Shown in pieces: positions 1 through 5,450 of a stretch of 5,450 nucleotides of DNA. Every line of letters begins with the position of its first letter. The first letter of the stretch is position 1. The DNA lies in contig JAKAHF010000201.1 of assembly GCA_021815245.1 (NCBI GenBank), positions 1 to 5,450 of the forward strand, in the 5' to 3' direction. A model generated the notes under the pieces. That model searched no databases and was not told the DNA's origin. It saw only the letters and a list, made by a program, of their open reading frames with translations. Source of the stretch: Actinomycetes bacterium (lineage in GTDB: Bacteria; Actinomycetota; Thermoleophilia; RBG-16-64-13). Both the position numbers and the translations under genes were made by a program.

Positions 1-561
1 GGACGAGACCGAGGCTCCGAGGTACACGATGCCGTTGGCGGCGAAGCCATCGACGTAGTATTTGAAGGCGCCGTCCTCATTGGCCTTGGCGCGTAGTTCC
101 ATCGGGTTGTACTCGGCGCGACCGAGAGCGCTCGAACCCGGAACGAGAGTGTCGGCGAACGGGCTGAGCACGCTGGCGAGGTCAACGGTACCCTTCTGCA
201 CGGCGGAAACCTGGTCGGGAGCCGGGATAGCTTCAGGCCCGCTCAGCTTGATCGTCATGGCTCCACCGGAGTACTCGACGACCTTCGCGATGAAGTCCTG
301 GGCCCAGTTGCCACCCGGCGGGATGTCGGGGATGAAGCTGACCATGGTCAGTTCGATAGGCTCAACGGCGGCAGCGGTGGTAGCCGTCGTCGGGGCCGAC
401 GTGGTGTCGGTGGACGGTGCGGCGGTAGTAGTCGTCTGAGGTGCGGCTGTAGTGGTGCTCTGAGGCGCAGCGGTGGTGGTGGTCGTCTCTTCACCACACG
501 CGGCCGTCAGGATAGAAAGTGCCAGGACAAGGCATACGCCCACAAAAAGTAGCTTCTTCAT
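1..561 (-). CDS. TRAP-type (DctP-like) solute-binding lipoprotein, 3' end outside window
   Basis: This is the 5' part (187 codons) of an open frame that continues past the left edge. The ATG at 561-559 is followed by MKK, a hydrophobic stretch (residues 4-18) and LTAAC, with Cys22 as the probable lipidation site, so the product should be exported and anchored on the outer face of the membrane. Residues 26-65 are a Thr/Ala/Pro-rich spacer. From residue 69 the sequence looks like the N-terminal lobe of a DctP-family periplasmic-type receptor: a short beta strand (ELTMVSF), a PGGNWAQDFIAKVVE helix, a GGAMTIKLSG strand, and PAPDQVSAVQKGTVDLAS, which matches the family's pattern of a helix followed by G-x-VD. 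DctP proteins bind organic acids and hand them to a DctQM membrane complex. The conserved substrate-binding Arg of the family would lie beyond the edge, and no DctQ or DctM gene is visible. The gene is divergent from tetR. An ABC-type receptor is the main alternative. Confidence 0.75.
   Translation of the reverse strand, partial: MKKLLFVGVCLVLALSILTAACGEETTTTTAAPQSTTTAAPQTTTTAAPSTDTTSAPTTATTAAAVEPIELTMVSFIPDIPPGGNWAQDFIAKVVEYSGGAMTIKLSGPEAIPAPDQVSAVQKGTVDLASVLSPFADTLVPGSSALGRAEYNPMELRAKANEDGAFKYYVDGFAANGIVYLGASVSS
415..486 (-). repeat. Thr/Ala/Pro repeat in lipoprotein spacer
   Basis: Three degenerate repeats encode the spacer after the lipidated Cys. At protein level they read TTTTTAAPQS, TTTAAPQ and TTTTAAP (residues 26-49). 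The underlying DNA is built from ACC/ACT and GCC/GCG codons and may slip in length between strains. Such spacers lift a binding domain away from the membrane or cell wall. Confidence 0.8.
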
Positions 562-785: not shown

Positions 786-838
786 CCAGAATGTTGCCCC
801 AGAATGGGACAAATACCACTCCCTTGCACGCCCAGAAT
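786..838. repeat. Three CCAGAAT direct repeats
   Basis: CCAGAAT occurs at 786-792, 799-805 and 832-838. The first two are 13 bp apart, and the third starts exactly 13 bp before the first CTACTAG-type repeat at 845. The repeats may be a second protein-binding site in the divergent region, or degenerate units of the adjacent array. No protein can be assigned. Confidence 0.4.
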
Positions 839-839
839 A

Positions 840-869
840 GTGACCCCTACTAGCGAGCACTACTAGCAT
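840..869 (+). promoter_or_regulatory. Candidate tetR promoter
   Basis: A -35-like GTGACC (840-845; four of six match TTGACA) and a -10-like TAGCAT (864-869; four of six match TATAAT) are separated by 18 bp. Transcription would start near 876, about 35 nt before the chosen tetR ATG. Both elements fall inside or beside the operator-like repeats, as expected for an autorepressed gene. The assignment rests on weak hexamers. Confidence 0.35.
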
Positions 870-882
870 ACGCTACTAGTAA
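845..882. promoter_or_regulatory. Operator-like block A upstream of tetR
   Basis: Three direct repeats CCCTACTAG (845-853), CACTACTAG (858-866) and CGCTACTAG (871-879) are spaced exactly 13 bp apart. A degenerate fourth unit may begin at 832. Inverted symmetry is also present: TAGC-N4-GCTA at 864-875, and TACTAG (861-866) facing CTAGTA (876-881). Positions 851-882 match block B (1700-1731) at 26 of 32 bases. Copies of one unusual sequence before a TetR gene and before its neighbouring operon are the classic arrangement for a TetR operator, so this is the likely autoregulation site. Binding is inferred, not shown. Confidence 0.8.
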
Positions 883-911
883 ATGCAAGCTGGGTGTGCT
901 TACCTAGGACC

Positions 912-1595
912 ATGAACACTCCTTCAAAGGAACACGCACGCAGGCCGCTTTCCACTCTCTGGAAACGGATGACCGACGACGAGAAAAGGCGGCGCATCGT
1001 CGACGCCGTCATCACCATCGTCGGCAAGCACGGCGTCCAGGGCGCGACCACCGCCCGCATCGCGAGCACAGTCGGGGTCTCCGAGCCGACTTTGTATCGT
1101 ACGTTCCGCAATCGCAGGGAGATGCTGCTTGCCGCTGCCGACAGGATCTGGCAGCAACGGCACGACGAACTCGAGTCGTTCGAGGCCATCGACGCGATGG
1201 ACTTTCTGAGGAAGGTCTGCGAGTCGCACACCATCGGCATCCGCAACACCCGAGTAGTGCGATTCATCACCGAATTGGCCGTTTCTCACGCGGGCGACGA
1301 GTTGAGCGGTCACATACGCGACCTGCAACTCGACGACGTCCGCCACTTGGCCATAGTCGTCGATCAGGGCAAGGTGGAGGGTTCCGTTCGGCCCGATGTC
1401 GACTCGTGGGAGATCGCTTGGCGCATCCAGAGCGTGTACTGGCTCGAGGCCATGGCTCGGCTGCACGGCCTCGAGAGCGAGGTGCTGACCGGGTTTTCCA
1501 CCAGAAGGTTCGAATCGATCCTCGACGACCTCGCTCCCGTGCGCACGCCTGAGCCCGCGTCGGCCGAAGCCGCCCCTCAGCTGATCGGCAGCTGA
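912..1595 (+). CDS. TetR/AcrR-family transcriptional regulator
   Basis: This 227-residue protein has the usual TetR size. Residues about 22-66 form the DNA-binding domain: an RRRIVDAVITIVGKHG helix, then GATTARIASTVGVSEPTLYRTF, which is the typical helix-turn-helix with the recognition helix at about 56-65. The rest is a helical ligand-binding and dimerisation domain that is too variable to name a ligand. The C-terminal 20 residues are Ala/Pro-rich and probably disordered. The start is uncertain. ATG 912 has only AGGA at 906-909, which is very close; ATG 969 (residue 20) has GGAAA just upstream; a GTG at 894 is also in frame. I chose 912 because it places the start shortly after block A. Repeat blocks before this gene and before the downstream operon suggest it represses both. 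Confidence 0.92.
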   Translation: MNTPSKEHARRPLSTLWKRMTDDEKRRRIVDAVITIVGKHGVQGATTARIASTVGVSEPTLYRTFRNRREMLLAAADRIWQQRHDELESFEAIDAMDFLRKVCESHTIGIRNTRVVRFITELAVSHAGDELSGHIRDLQLDDVRHLAIVVDQGKVEGSVRPDVDSWEIAWRIQSVYWLEAMARLHGLESEVLTGFSTRRFESILDDLAPVRTPEPASAEAAPQLIGS

Positions 1596-1640
1596 CCCGC
1601 CGCCCCGCCTCTACGGCCGGGTCCGGTGCCGGATCTTTCG
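1594..1640 (+). terminator. Weak candidate tetR terminator
   Basis: Directly after the tetR stop, GACCCG (1594-1599) can pair with CGGGTC (1618-1623). Alternatively a short GC hairpin forms at 1621-1634 and is followed by CTTT. The two folds overlap and the T-run is poor, so termination here is only a possibility. No other terminator is seen before the next operon. Confidence 0.25.
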
Positions 1641-1693
1641 CACGCCCACGCACAATGTTGCTTCACCCCCCTTTCTTTTGCGCGCTCTTGCCT

Positions 1694-1731
1694 CTACAGT
1701 AGTGAGCACTACTAGTGCGCGCTACTAGCAA
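1694..1731. promoter_or_regulatory. Operator-like block B upstream of the five-gene operon
   Basis: CACTACTAG (1707-1715) and CGCTACTAG (1720-1728) repeat with the same 13-bp period as in block A, preceded in register by a diverged unit at 1694-1702. AGTAGTG (1698-1704) and CACTACT (1707-1713) form a perfect 7-bp inverted repeat with a 2-bp centre. Positions 1700-1731 match block A (851-882) at 26 of 32 bases. A TACAGT (1695-1700) could be a -10 element overlapped by the block, but its -35 is weak. The site lies about 65-95 bp before the UroD-like start, fitting TetR control of the operon. Confidence 0.78.
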
Positions 1732-1794: not shown

Positions 1795-3066
1795 ATGTCC
1801 GCGGTCTCGATGGACTCGGCCAAGACGCCGCACGCCCCCGGGGCGGAGAGGGCGCAGCGCATACGCGATGCGATGGAGCTGAAACAACCCGATACGATCC
1901 CGCTGATCATGTCGATGGGGTACATGCTGGCCGACCTCGGCGGCGTCACCAAGCAAGAGCTGCTTGAGAATCCCGAGGTGGCTCAGGAGCTTCTCGAGAA
2001 GGCGGCCTTCGAATTCCAGCCCGATTCCATCCACGGACCGGTGCCCGCCGACCCCCTACCGCACCTGATCTTGGGCGACCGCATGACGGTCTGGCCCGGA
2101 CACGGCGTGAGCGTCGATTCGCAATACCAGTTCGTCGAGAGCGAGTTCATGAAGGCAGATGAGTATGACGCCTTCATCGACGACCCGACCGGCTGGGTGC
2201 TACGCACCTACCTGCCACGGGCATTCTCGGCGTTGGAGCCGTTCTCGGCGTTGCCTCCGCTCAGCCTCTTCGTGTCGGGCAGCTACTTTCTGAACAACAT
2301 GAGCCCGCTTGCCTCGCCGGCGATGGCCGAGTCGCTGAAGACGTTCGGTGAGGCAGTGCAGGCCGTCGCGCGCGGCATCGAACGCGCGGTGAAGAACCAT
2401 CGCCGCATGGCCGAGCTCGGCTGGTCCGACGGCTTCTTGGCTGGCCCGGTCTTGACTGCTCCGTTCGACATGATGTCTGACGCGCTGCGGGGCATGCGGG
2501 GCATCATGCTCGACATGATGCGGCAGCCCGAGAAGCTGCTCGTCGCCCAAGACAAAGTCGCCCGCGTGCAACTCGAGCATGCCGTGGCTTCAGCCAAGAT
2601 GATGGGCGCCACGCGCGCCTTCCTGCCGCTCCATCGAGGTTCCGACGGTTTCATGTCTTTGAAGCAGTTCGAGAACATGTACTGGAAGCAGCTCAAGGAG
2701 ACCCTCGAACAGTTGGTCGACAGCGGCATAACCCCGGTCGTCTTCTACGAGGGCTGCTGGGATCAACGTCTCGAGTATCTCGCCGAACTTCCCAAGGGCA
2801 AGACCGTCGGGTGGTTCCAATCGAGCGACATCTTCAAGGTCAAAGAGGTGCTGGGCGACACCATGTGCATCGTCGGTGGCATGCCCAACTCTCTGCTCAA
2901 GGCCGGTCCGGTGGAAGCCATCCGCGAGCGCACGCAGCGCGTCTGCGAGGTCGTCGGCAAGGGCGGCGGCTTCATGATGTGCACCGCGGTGGGCGAGATG
3001 GCGGGGAGCGATCCTGAGTTCGTGCATGCCTGGGCGGATGCCACCCGGGAGTTCGGCAAGTACTGA
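1795..3066 (+). CDS. Uroporphyrinogen decarboxylase (UroD/MtaA) superfamily protein
   Basis: This 423-residue protein resembles the UroD-like TIM-barrel family that includes heme-pathway HemE and the corrinoid-dependent methyltransferases MtaA/MtbA. Signs include the N-terminal AQRIRDAMELKQPDTIPL pattern, LPLHRGSDGFMS (277-288), PVVFYEGCWDQRLEYL (314-329), the strand and turn TVGWFQSSDIFKVKEVLG (337-354), and GGMPNSLL (361-368), which corresponds to the family's G-N-x-P segment. It is longer than HemE (about 350 residues), and its operon lacks other heme genes, so heme synthesis is unlikely. MtaA-type enzymes bind zinc through H-x-C plus a distant Cys. Here the matching place reads E319-G-C321, with C396 near the C-terminus, which could be a variant metal site. 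Methyl transfer to or from a small substrate is a reasonable guess. No corrinoid-binding protein gene is visible. The gene leads the operon, 40 bp before the cupin gene. Confidence 0.85.
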   Translation: MSAVSMDSAKTPHAPGAERAQRIRDAMELKQPDTIPLIMSMGYMLADLGGVTKQELLENPEVAQELLEKAAFEFQPDSIHGPVPADPLPHLILGDRMTVWPGHGVSVDSQYQFVESEFMKADEYDAFIDDPTGWVLRTYLPRAFSALEPFSALPPLSLFVSGSYFLNNMSPLASPAMAESLKTFGEAVQAVARGIERAVKNHRRMAELGWSDGFLAGPVLTAPFDMMSDALRGMRGIMLDMMRQPEKLLVAQDKVARVQLEHAVASAKMMGATRAFLPLHRGSDGFMSLKQFENMYWKQLKETLEQLVDSGITPVVFYEGCWDQRLEYLAELPKGKTVGWFQSSDIFKVKEVLGDTMCIVGGMPNSLLKAGPVEAIRERTQRVCEVVGKGGGFMMCTAVGEMAGSDPEFVHAWADATREFGKY

Positions 3067-3091
3067 GGTCATGGCGGGTAGTGTCGGCGGC

Positions 3092-3103
3092 AAGGAGGAG
3101 GAG
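3092..3103 (+). promoter_or_regulatory. Shine-Dalgarno site that fixes the cupin start
   Basis: AAGGAGGAGGAG lies just before ATG 3107. In-frame ATGs at 3026 and 3071 would overlap the upstream gene or lack a comparable site. Confidence 0.8.
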
Positions 3104-3106
3104 CGG

Positions 3107-3523
3107 ATGGGCGGCAAGTACGACGAGTTGTTCTACACAGACGCTGTCGTGCCGGGCAAGTTCGGCGATCGCATGGTCTACTACGCCCGCAACCACGTGG
3201 GCGAGAAGAACTACTCCAACACGTGGAACTACGTGACCGAGCCCTTCCTCATGGTCCGCGATCCGCACACGCACGAGTTCGACCAGTTTCTGCACTTCTT
3301 CAACGCCGATGGCGGCAACGTGGCCGAGTTTCCCGCCGAGGTGGAGCTGACGCTCGGCGAAGAGCTTGAGCCGCACCTCATCACCAAGCCGACCGTCATC
3401 TACGTACCGGCCGGCATGCTGCACGGGCCGCTCGACTTCAAGGTGGTCAGGTCGCCTGTGGTGTTCATGAACGTAGCTTTCACGCCTGAGTACATGAAGC
3501 CGGGCGAGCACCCCAAACCGTGA
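3107..3523 (+). CDS. Small single-domain cupin protein of unknown function
   Basis: This 138-residue protein shows both cupin motifs. Motif 1 is seen in PHTHEFDQFLHFF (53-65), with His54 and His56 and an acidic or amide ligand at Glu57, Asp59 or Gln60. Motif 2 is VIYVPAGMLHGPLDF (97-111), with P-x-G and His106. This matches the usual three-His-plus-acid metal site, with further His63 and His90 nearby. The stretch between, AEVELTLGEELEPHLITKPT, is regular beta structure. Cupins may be metal-dependent oxygenases, isomerases, lyases or ligand sensors, and nothing here chooses between them. I recognise the pattern as a conserved uncharacterised type but not a named enzyme. No signal peptide is seen, so it is cytoplasmic. 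The setting, between a UroD-like protein and an SDR, suggests a role on the same substrate. Confidence 0.78.
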   Translation: MGGKYDELFYTDAVVPGKFGDRMVYYARNHVGEKNYSNTWNYVTEPFLMVRDPHTHEFDQFLHFFNADGGNVAEFPAEVELTLGEELEPHLITKPTVIYVPAGMLHGPLDFKVVRSPVVFMNVAFTPEYMKPGEHPKP

Positions 3524-3578
3524 GCGCGCAGCAGACCTTGAGAGCCGGGTTCGTCGGAAGTCGGACAGAGGAGACACA

Positions 3579-4316
3579 GTGGACCTGAAACTGACGGACA
3601 AGATTGCGCTGGTAACCGGTAGCGGCAGTCCCATCGGCTACGGCCGGGCCATCGCCCTGACGCTGGCCGAGGAGGGCTGCCATGTGGCGTGCGCCGACCT
3701 CGACGCTGCCTGGGCTGAAGAAGCCGCCGCGGCGGTTGAGAAGCTGGGGCGGCAGGCCCTCGGCGTTGGTGTCGACGTGGCCGACCGGGCCTCGGTCGAC
3801 GCCATGGCGCAGGCGGTCGTGGCGAAGTTCGGCCGCATCGACATCCTGGTCAACAATGCCGGCACCAGTAGCCCCGACAAGCCTTTCATGATGAAGACCA
3901 AGGCCGACTGGGACCTCGACATCGGCGTGAACCTGTACGGCCAGATGAATGTCGCCCAGGCGGTGATCCCGTTCATGGCGCAGAACGGGTACGGCCGCAT
4001 CGTCAATACGTCGGGCGGGCAGGGCATTCCCACGGTGTCGACGTACGGCGCGGCCAAGGCGGGCGTCGAAGCCTGGACGCATGCGCTGGCGCTCGAAGTG
4101 GCCGGCATGGGCATCATCGTCAACGGCATCACCCCCGGTCTCGGCGCGACGGGGCTGAACAAGACCACCACCGACGAGCACCGCGAGGGGTTCAAGCGCA
4201 TGTCGGCGCTCAAGCGGCTCTGCGCGCCGGAGGACGTGGCGCCGGCGGTGGCCTTCTTGGCCTCCGACACGTGCAGCTACATGGTCGGCCAGTGGATCAA
4301 GCTCGCGACTTTCTAG
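3579..4316 (+). CDS. Short-chain dehydrogenase/reductase (SDR), classical type
   Basis: This 245-residue protein has the length and motifs of a classical SDR: cofactor loop TGSGSPIGYG (13-22), Asp40 at the end of the second strand (favours NAD(H) over NADP(H)), D66-V67, NNAG (92-95), active-site Y156-GAA-K160, and VNGITPG (181-187). It should oxidise or reduce a hydroxyl/keto group on a small molecule in the cytoplasm. Two oddities stand out. The catalytic Ser region reads NTSGG (143-147), so by spacing the usual second Ser falls at Gly146, with Ser145 one place earlier. The C-terminus ends QWIKLATF instead of the common G-Q-x-x-x-V-D-G-G. The start is GTG with GAGGAG (3568-3573) 5 nt upstream. 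It lies 55 bp after the cupin gene and 19 bp before the ferredoxin gene. The substrate is unknown; FabG-like fatty-acid reduction is unlikely in this setting. Confidence 0.9.
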   Translation: MDLKLTDKIALVTGSGSPIGYGRAIALTLAEEGCHVACADLDAAWAEEAAAAVEKLGRQALGVGVDVADRASVDAMAQAVVAKFGRIDILVNNAGTSSPDKPFMMKTKADWDLDIGVNLYGQMNVAQAVIPFMAQNGYGRIVNTSGGQGIPTVSTYGAAKAGVEAWTHALALEVAGMGIIVNGITPGLGATGLNKTTTDEHREGFKRMSALKRLCAPEDVAPAVAFLASDTCSYMVGQWIKLATF

Positions 4317-4335
4317 AGGATAGAGGAGCCCAAGA

Positions 4336-4557
4336 ATGGCAGTTCGCAACTTTGACCGGGACCTTTGCTCGGGGTGCGGCAACTGCGTGGCCGCCTGCCC
4401 GATGGACGTGTTCCGTCTCGACGAGACCGACGGCAAGGCCGTCGTCGCCTATCCGCTCGACTGCGTCGCCTGCTGGGGATGCGAGTCGTTTTGTTGTGAA
4501 GGCTGCATAGACATCTCACCCGAGCGGGCTCGGGGCGAGATGGTCTCGCCGTACTAG
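4336..4557 (+). CDS. Two-cluster 4Fe-4S ferredoxin (AprB-like small electron carrier)
   Basis: This 73-residue protein has two 4Fe-4S motifs: C11-x2-C14-x2-C17-x3-C21-P, and C43-x2-C46-x2-C49-x3-C53. The second sits in DCVACWGCESFC, where the Trp-Gly-Cys pattern resembles the ferredoxin-like beta subunit of adenylylsulfate reductase. AprB is about twice as long, so this is a minimal version. The residue after C53 is Cys54 rather than the usual Pro, and Cys57 follows, giving ten cysteines where eight are needed. It should pass single electrons in the cytoplasm. The flavoprotein gene starts 14 bp downstream, so the two probably form a complex or an electron-transfer pair. The start is clear: AGAGGAG (4322-4328) lies 7 nt before the ATG. 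Confidence 0.92.
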   Translation: MAVRNFDRDLCSGCGNCVAACPMDVFRLDETDGKAVVAYPLDCVACWGCESFCCEGCIDISPERARGEMVSPY

Positions 4558-4571
4558 GAAGGGGTGACGGA

Positions 4572-5450
4572 ATGACCACAGCAACAGTCACGCCCACGGT
4601 CATCACCACCGACGTGCTCGTGCTCGGCGGAGGCGGTGCAGGCATATGCGCCGCGCTCAAAGCGAGGGAGAGCGGCGCCGACGTGCTCATGGTCGACAAG
4701 TGCGGCATCGGGTACGCCGGGCAGGTGCCTATCGGCGGTGGCATCCTCGCGTATGTCTACCCCGAGAGGGTCGATTCCTGGTTCGAGAAGGTGACTCGCG
4801 ACAGCCACTTCTTCAACAACCAGGAGTGGACCTACCGGTTCGGCAGCCGCATGCACCAGTCGACCCACGAACTGGCCGACATGGGTCTCACCTTCCTCAA
4901 GAAGGACGGCGAGATCGACATTCTCAACTGGGGGCCGACCAACGTCACTTTGTTCGACTCCCCCAAGTCGTTGGTGGCATTGACCAAGACGGCCAAGGCG
5001 CGCGGCATCAAGATGATGGATAAGATCTTTGTCGTCGACCTGCTCAAGAACGGCGACCAGGTGGTCGGCGCGGCAGCGATTGGCCTGGTCGACGGGCGCG
5101 TCTACCTCTTCAACGCCAAGGCGACGATCTGCGCCACCGGCAACTGTGGCTACATGCACGAGAAGACCTACGCGTCGGTGTTGGGCGAAGGCCCTGCCAT
5201 GGGTTACCGGGCGGGTGCACAGCTCACCAACGCTGAGTTCAACAGCATGTGGGTCTGGGGCATCAAGATTCTCGGCAAAGAGCTCATGGGCATCCACTTC
5301 TACCGGTACCTCGAGAACGCACCGGGCGAGAGGATCATGGGCAAGTACTATCCGGAACTCCGGGACGGCATGCCCCCGGTCTTTACCTTCGATCCGCGGG
5401 TGATTCGCGCCATGCACGAGGAAGTCAAGGCCGGGCGCGGTCCCATTTAC
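4572..5450 (+). CDS. FAD-dependent flavoprotein, fumarate reductase/AprA superfamily, 3' end outside window
   Basis: This is the first 293 codons of an open frame that runs past the right edge. The N-terminus holds a Rossmann dinucleotide fold, DVLVLGGGGAGICAALKA (14-31), with glycines at 19-24 and Asp42 ending the second strand to hold the adenosine ribose. ATG (188-190) in TICATGNCGYM is the second FAD contact, and GEGPAMGYRAGAQLTNAEF (205-223) matches the superfamily's G-x-G-x-x-M-x-x-x-A-G-A pattern. Where succinate dehydrogenases carry the His that binds FAD covalently, this protein reads YAGQVPIGGGI (48-58) with no His, so FAD is probably non-covalent, as in AprA. The substrate-binding domain is only partly present. 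Such proteins oxidise or reduce C-C bonds, sulfur compounds or other acids, and the partner ferredoxin 14 bp upstream suggests electron exchange with it. Start ATG 4572 follows AAGGGG (4559-4564). Confidence 0.9.
   Translation, partial: MTTATVTPTVITTDVLVLGGGGAGICAALKARESGADVLMVDKCGIGYAGQVPIGGGILAYVYPERVDSWFEKVTRDSHFFNNQEWTYRFGSRMHQSTHELADMGLTFLKKDGEIDILNWGPTNVTLFDSPKSLVALTKTAKARGIKMMDKIFVVDLLKNGDQVVGAAAIGLVDGRVYLFNAKATICATGNCGYMHEKTYASVLGEGPAMGYRAGAQLTNAEFNSMWVWGIKILGKELMGIHFYRYLENAPGERIMGKYYPELRDGMPPVFTFDPRVIRAMHEEVKAGRGPIY

Follow-up and report, generated by a model that had tools for sequence, protein, structure and literature searches.

In the 5,450-bp stretch of DNA analyzed here (hereafter the window), two similar 32-bp blocks flank a gene encoding a TetR-family regulator, one lying upstream of that gene and the other upstream of an operon of catabolic appearance. 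The arrangement raises three questions: whether the blocks are operators of the intervening TetR, which unit within them would be recognized, and how far the control of this regulator would extend.

Genes in the window

The genes, with the domain matches that identify them, are as follows.

912..1595, + strand: TetR-family regulator, 227 aa (PF00440, 36.9 bits against a cut-off of 24; start at ATG 912, with GTG 894 also possible)
1795..3066, + strand: URO-D family protein, first gene of the operon (PF01208, 66.5 bits against a cut-off of 23.9)
3071..3523, + strand: uncharacterised protein (open reading frame; the start may be 3107)
3579..4316, + strand: short-chain dehydrogenase/reductase (SDR; PF13561, PF00106)
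4336..4557, + strand: small 4Fe-4S ferredoxin (Fer4 families)
4572..5450, + strand: FAD-dependent fumarate-reductase-like flavoprotein, gene cut by the window end (PF00890, 78.1 bits)
1..561, - strand: divergent lipoprotein gene, probable TRAP solute-binding DctP, cut at the window end (open reading frame)

The regulator carries the N-terminal TetR helix-turn-helix of PF00440. Its AlphaFold2 model (mean pLDDT 87.9) contains helices only, and the best Foldseek matches in the PDB are TetR-type regulators, which is consistent with an all-helical fold with a C-terminal ligand domain. The operon occupies 1795-5450 in the window, approximately 10780 to 19600 at the orthologous locus L001 and 9382-17757 at the orthologous locus L065. 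It encodes the URO-D protein, the SDR, the ferredoxin and the flavoprotein, to which the relatives add FAD_binding_4 oxidases and a CCG iron-sulfur protein; the protein encoded at 3071..3523 had no match in Pfam or NCBIfam. The title of L001 carries the name RBG-16-64-13, and a genus of that name is termed actively methylotrophic in an excerpt of PMC10805028. In the 1..561 piece, a gene truncated by the window end, Pfam gave no DctP match. The gene at the divergent position in L001 encodes DctP and is followed by DctQ and DctM, forming a TRAP transporter; orthology between this DctP and the 1..561 product was judged by eye and from position.

The blocks are parts of a 13-bp palindrome array

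Blocks 851-882 and 1700-1731 share 26 of their 32 bases; the remaining six, at block positions 4, 17, 18, 19, 20 and 30, all differ by transitions (C/T or A/G). Both contain GAGCACTACTAG, then a YRYR tetramer, then CGCTACTAG, just as the preliminary description had it. No other pair of 32-mers in the window matches better than 26/32; the best match per shuffle was 22-24 in 30 dinucleotide shuffles of the whole window and 17-22 when the two intergenic regions were shuffled 1000 times. A repeat finder also returned a third copy at 838-869 (72%), offset by 13 bp, so that the block overlaps itself. This shifted copy gave the first hint of periodicity.

The underlying repeat unit is TAGYRNNYRCTA, a 12-bp palindrome that recurs every 13 bp. 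It is exact at 851, 864, 1700 and 1713 and has one mismatch at 838 and 877; the four exact copies in 5450 bases compare with approximately 0.04 expected from base composition. The 32-bp block, which had been taken as a single operator unit, is actually two abutting palindromes and the start of a third. Upstream of tetR, array O1 (838-888) holds four units, two exact and two with one mismatch, and reads TAGTGACCCCTA-C-TAGCGAGCACTA-C-TAGCATACGCTA-C-TAGTAAATGCAA; it ends 23 bp upstream of the tetR ATG. Upstream of the operon, array O2 (1700-1724) holds two units, both exact, lies 70 bp upstream of the URO-D gene and reads, from 1700, TAGTGAGCACTA-C-TAGTGCGCGCTA-C-TAGCA. The units, for which no strand is assigned, are listed here with their counterparts at the orthologous loci L001, L002 and L065.

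838..849: O1 unit 1, TAGTGACCCCTA, one mismatch to TAGYRNNYRCTA; TAGTGATCCCTA in L001, TAGTGGCCCCTA in L002, absent from L065
851..862: O1 unit 2, TAGCGAGCACTA, exact; exact in L001 and L002, one mismatch in L065
864..875: O1 unit 3, TAGCATACGCTA, exact; identical in L001 and L002, TAGCACACGCTA in L065
877..888: O1 unit 4, TAGTAAATGCAA, one mismatch, degenerate right half; one-mismatch counterparts in L001 and L065, none in L002
1700..1711: O2 unit 1, TAGTGAGCACTA, exact; exact in L001 and L002, none in L065
1713..1724: O2 unit 2, TAGTGCGCGCTA, exact; exact in L001 and L002, none in L065

Between 562 and 837, on the dctP side, no TAGYRNNYRCTA unit was found at one mismatch or fewer, and hence no second operator near dctP. 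The gap between the divergent gene and tetR (561 to 912) is 350 bp, whereas the rule that links a TetR to its divergent neighbor, which has exceptions, applies below 200 bp (PMC3511530, excerpt). Given this gap and the lack of a unit near the divergent gene, control of the TRAP transporter by TetR is uncertain. A consensus promoter scan of 562-1800 returned a single promoter-like site, at 763-792, and none at either array. Hexamers chosen by eye around O2 are not claimed as a promoter because the orthologues disagree.

The arrays are conserved at orthologous loci

We searched a species-genome collection with a profile of 38 TetRs (the window protein and 37 of the 120 homologues listed) and found 14 loci; a scan with the window protein alone confirmed none. 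The closest were L001 and L002, whose TetRs are 73% and 65% identical to that of the window. Each carries exact unit pairs, 13 bp apart, at both of the expected places, one pair upstream of tetR and the other between tetR and the URO-D gene. A whole-genome search added a third orthologue, L065 in genome G045. There tetR ends at 9377 and the URO-D gene starts at 9382, so that tetR runs into the first gene of the operon; O2 is absent and O1 is retained as one exact and two one-mismatch units. The absence of O2 from this locus is what one would predict for an array serving an operon promoter of its own. When the four divergent regions were aligned, the longest conserved run was ACTACTAGCAnACGCTACTA, with 19 of 20 columns invariant, and O1 unit 3 lies inside it.

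Bare repetition alone could also come from a duplicated mobile or RNA element that has no regulatory role. We consider the probability of this negligible, since the conservation across orthologues is position-specific and the window gave no Rfam match at the gathering threshold. The recurrence of the arrays at the same places in two orthologues instead supports the proposal of the preliminary description that the two blocks point to probable TetR sites and to their regulon, here a local one of tetR and the downstream operon.

Two-unit arrays are confined to the tetR locus in two relatives

Genome-wide rarity was checked in the relatives G001 and G002, where two-unit arrays with up to two mismatches occur only at this locus. 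At that threshold, two of six genomes were matched, G001 at five places and G002 at four, all at the tetR locus; the reversed control gave none in either and one in G005. At one mismatch or fewer, G001 was the sole match among 396 genomes of the phylum, a sample in which G002 and G045 were not seen, while the control matched six genomes. Among 18 genomes of the family, the tetR locus of G045 was matched with one mismatch. Relaxing the threshold to three mismatches in these 18 genomes added eight places, all with three mismatches, against 71 for the control, and we set the eight aside as noise. Single units elsewhere were likewise dropped as regulon predictions, as chance alone yields them at this genome size. 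Because two-unit arrays are confined to the tetR locus in these scans, the regulator appears to be local.

At E<=1e-30, the TetR family was found in nine of 399 sampled genomes of the class (G001, G002, G003, G004, G005, G016, G045, G062 and G068), with one to seven copies per positive genome among the candidates scored. On these searches, the family is a lineage-specific expansion.

Distant relatives identify the palindrome as the common element

Loci L003, L004 and L006 (genomes G003, G004 and G005) encode TetRs 37-41% identical to that of the window. Adjoining each tetR are two exact TAGYRNNYRCTA units spaced 15 bp apart, for example TTAGTGTCCGCTA-TCT-TAGCGAACACTAA. A search of the 18 family genomes with the 15-bp pattern at one mismatch or fewer returned only these three loci, and the control returned four others, once each.

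This clade bears on what the repeated unit is. The heptamer CTACTAG occurs at 847, 860, 873, 1709 and 1722, and O1 is well described by three successive copies of it, so that the functional element might be a heptamer repeated directly once per 13 bp, as CTA-S-TAG dyads or iteron-like repeats. However, the 15-bp clade has CTA-NNN-TAG in place of CTACTAG and keeps TAGYRNNYRCTA exactly, a solitary exact palindrome, TAGCGCATGCTA, precedes the G005 tetR (L006 139-150), and the GAG-type paralogues described below carry single palindromes in the same frame. We therefore judge the heptamer highly unlikely as the functional element and, on the evidence of the 15-bp clade, abandoned it as the unit. The palindrome centered on NN is the element common to both clades.

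In G005, the 15-bp pair follows tetR. The region preceding tetR yielded no unit in G003 or G004 (L003 and L004), so that auto-control is not general.

Recognition-helix residues correspond to operator type

We examined 56 TetR-like rows, comprising the window protein and 55 others from nine genomes (49 places and six more); the searches scored up to seven candidates per genome, and sites were sought up to 350 bp on either side. TAG-type units lie near seven of the ten rows with Glu-Pro at residues 58-59 (seven of the eight with EPT), and GAG-type units, in which GAG/CTC replaces TAG/CTA, lie near ten of the 11 rows with Glu-Gly or Gln-Gly, the two groups having been named after the sites had been seen. 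Crossed cases (Glu-Pro with GAG-type units or Glu/Gln-Gly with TAG-type units) were absent from the 56 rows. Residues 58-59 thus match the outer base of the operator among the paralogues. Neither site type was found within 350 bp of the Glu-Pro rows L033, L093 and L101 (EPS) or the Glu-Gly row L113 (EGA). The same was true of 11 further Pro-59 and six further Gly-59 rows whose residue 58 is different, which rules out residue 59 alone as a predictor of the operator. Among the remaining rows, L030 (EAT) has a TAG-type unit and the other 17 have none. Across residues 44-72, only residue 59 has disjoint residues between the seven TAG-type and the ten GAG-type genes.

A putative second operator type, TGAGYRNNYRCTCA, accompanies all ten GAG-type genes (L043, L049, L051, L031, L039, L046, L117, L038, L047 and L050), 30-194 bp upstream of where the homology match begins. 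In two of them, L043 and L051, a conserved TAACRTGTACTA comes approximately 14 bp after it, perhaps an extended -10 promoter.

In a tree, the TAG and GAG groups fall on opposite sides of one branch, with the site-less L033 and L093 within the TAG side. The match between helix and operator therefore counts as one evolutionary change, that is, as a correlation, and as evidence that the window TetR binds its sites the correspondence appears strong but correlative. Pro-59 of the window protein aligns with position 39 of TetR (2vpr match, residues 26-103 to 6-83). Position 39 belongs to an altered-specificity set, as the V36F/E37A/P39K substitutions redirect TetR binding to tetO-4C5G (PMC6515661, excerpt).

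These data also bear on which protein uses the arrays. The tie between TetR and the sites rests on sequence, and a different DNA-binding protein might use them instead. Against this stand the arrays of G001 and G002, found solely beside this tetR, and the outer base of the palindrome, which varies with the recognition-helix residues of the TetR beside it; we hold it very improbable that another protein is responsible.

Pyrimidine-purine steps flank the dyad

The preliminary description held that the purine-pyrimidine pattern of the blocks is fully kept and that this could point to recognition of DNA shape. Among the TAGN6CTA sites close to the seven TAG-type genes, 20 of 26 have a YR step on each side of the center, as do 12 of the 17 GAGN6CTC sites close to the ten GAG-type genes; for comparable sites close to other genes, the figure is two of 28. 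The counts are somewhat favored because some genes were first noticed with YR-containing patterns. In the four orthologues chosen by homology, the figure is 13 of 19. At these steps, both Y and both R bases are in use. The central dinucleotide, by contrast, took ten different values among 20 sites, relatives including AG, CT, GA, TC, AA and GT, and of the six transitions between the blocks, four fall on Y/R positions and two on this free center. The YR preference beside the dyad thus looks real across these sites, but the pattern is not wholly kept. The outermost O1 unit, conserved as TAGTGRYCCCTA (window 838-849, L001 9924-9935, L002 5328-5339), departs from the YR rule identically in all three orthologues; it could represent a weaker site or else a promoter element.

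These counts favor, up to a point, the possibility that TetR chiefly reads DNA shape through the purine-pyrimidine pattern of the block. So does the case of FadRSa, where recognition is believed to be helped by a YpG step (PMC6449355, excerpt). Yet the way the sites are defined fixes the bases of TAG and CTA, which change together with the helix, and the center, where two of the six transitions fall, is free. We consider shape as the chief determinant unlikely; what stands of the earlier suggestion is the conserved YR steps beside the dyad.

Proposed mechanism and significance

We conclude that both blocks are very probably operators of the TetR encoded between them, which would exert local, auto-repressing control over the catabolic operon. 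Conserved palindromes of the kind that suits a TetR dimer are present, while binding and release by ligand are predictions from them. One dimer would grip one 12-bp TAGYRNNYRCTA palindrome by its TAG and CTA ends. With units arranged head to tail every 13 bp, neighboring dimers would sit side by side, approximately 86 degrees apart around the helix, and each array would probably hold several. By blocking transcription, TetR on these sites would keep tetR and the operon repressed until a small ligand from the pathway releases it. Physical binding, repression rather than activation, the number of dimers, cooperativity and the ligand are all points that we infer.

Tentatively, and with rather less than even probability, the expanded actinobacterial TetR family may use a two-part operator code made up of helix residues 58-59, YR steps and dimer spacing. 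As part of that code, Glu-Pro would read TAG..CTA, and Glu/Gln-Gly would read TGAG..CTCA as a TpG step; the deformable YR steps flanking the dyad would be kept, and the clade-specific spacing of 13 or 15 bp would separately prevent cross-talk between paralogues. The existence of Pro-59 and Gly-59 rows without sites slightly weakens this proposal.

As predicted here, this is an ordinary type of local control for which the sequence evidence is unusually clear, with a link between protein and DNA sequence that is easy to read. It provides a precise predicted operator, a predicted local regulon and candidate specificity residues for a TetR family that is uncharacterised and adjoins unexplained catabolic operons of uncultured Actinobacteria. 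Of specialist interest are the 13- versus 15-bp spacing and the correspondence of Glu-Pro with TAG and of Glu-Gly with GAG. If helix residues and spacing set specificity, the family would constitute natural orthogonal repressor-operator pairs, and its operators could help to show which pathways are regulated in further metagenome bins.

Comparison with known systems

In the titles and abstract openings of the open-access literature, we found neither this TetR family nor a 13-bp TAGYRNNYRCTA array described; PMC12392098, from its excerpt, concerns bHLH factors and not TetR.

Among solved structures, those nearest in sequence to the profile are of Bacillus FadR (5gp9/5gpa/5gpc, 3whb; E 1.3e-13), which is also among the fold matches, but the window protein scores 39.8 bits against the cut-off of 200 for the FadR equivalog NF053878 (NCBIfam). 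The Tn10-type TetR shares the alignment of its residue 39 with window Pro-59; it differs in its operator, its neighbors and presumably its ligand, and here the variation from Pro to Gly is natural.

FadRSa of Sulfolobus acidocaldarius is likewise a TetR-family local repressor of a catabolic cluster and binds as one or two dimers according to the operator; the excerpt of PMC6449355 describes a contact between guanine and a Gly of the recognition helix and also discusses YpG steps. Unlike the window TetR, it is an archaeal fatty-acid regulator, and its Gly48 resembles the Gly of the GAG-type paralogues rather than the Pro of the window protein.

The dimer-of-dimers regulators QacR, CprB, CgmR and Ms6564 have operators of 22-32 bp for two dimers (PMC4150764, excerpt). 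The two-unit core falls in this range, at 25 bp in the 13-bp clade (window, L001 and L002) or 27 bp in the 15-bp clade, the cooperativity of two dimers being a prediction. Here, however, the palindromes abut rather than overlap, and in the window up to four units are possible. CprB dimers occupy opposite faces of the DNA (PMC4150764, excerpt), whereas spacings of 13 and 15 bp would place dimers approximately 86 and 154 degrees apart.

MbdR of Azoarcus sp. CIB, whose solved structure (4uds) is among the sequence matches, differs in its operator, ATACN10GTAT, and in its pathway genes, and the excerpt of PMC4424350 describes no 13-bp array. In that excerpt, MbdR is a TetR-family repressor encoded next to a cluster for anaerobic catabolism. 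Its operator precedes both mbdR, where three copies are predicted, and catabolic operons, and the mbdR promoter gives several shifted bands. Without a shared subfamily being implied, MbdR appears to work like the window TetR and may be regarded as its functional analogue.
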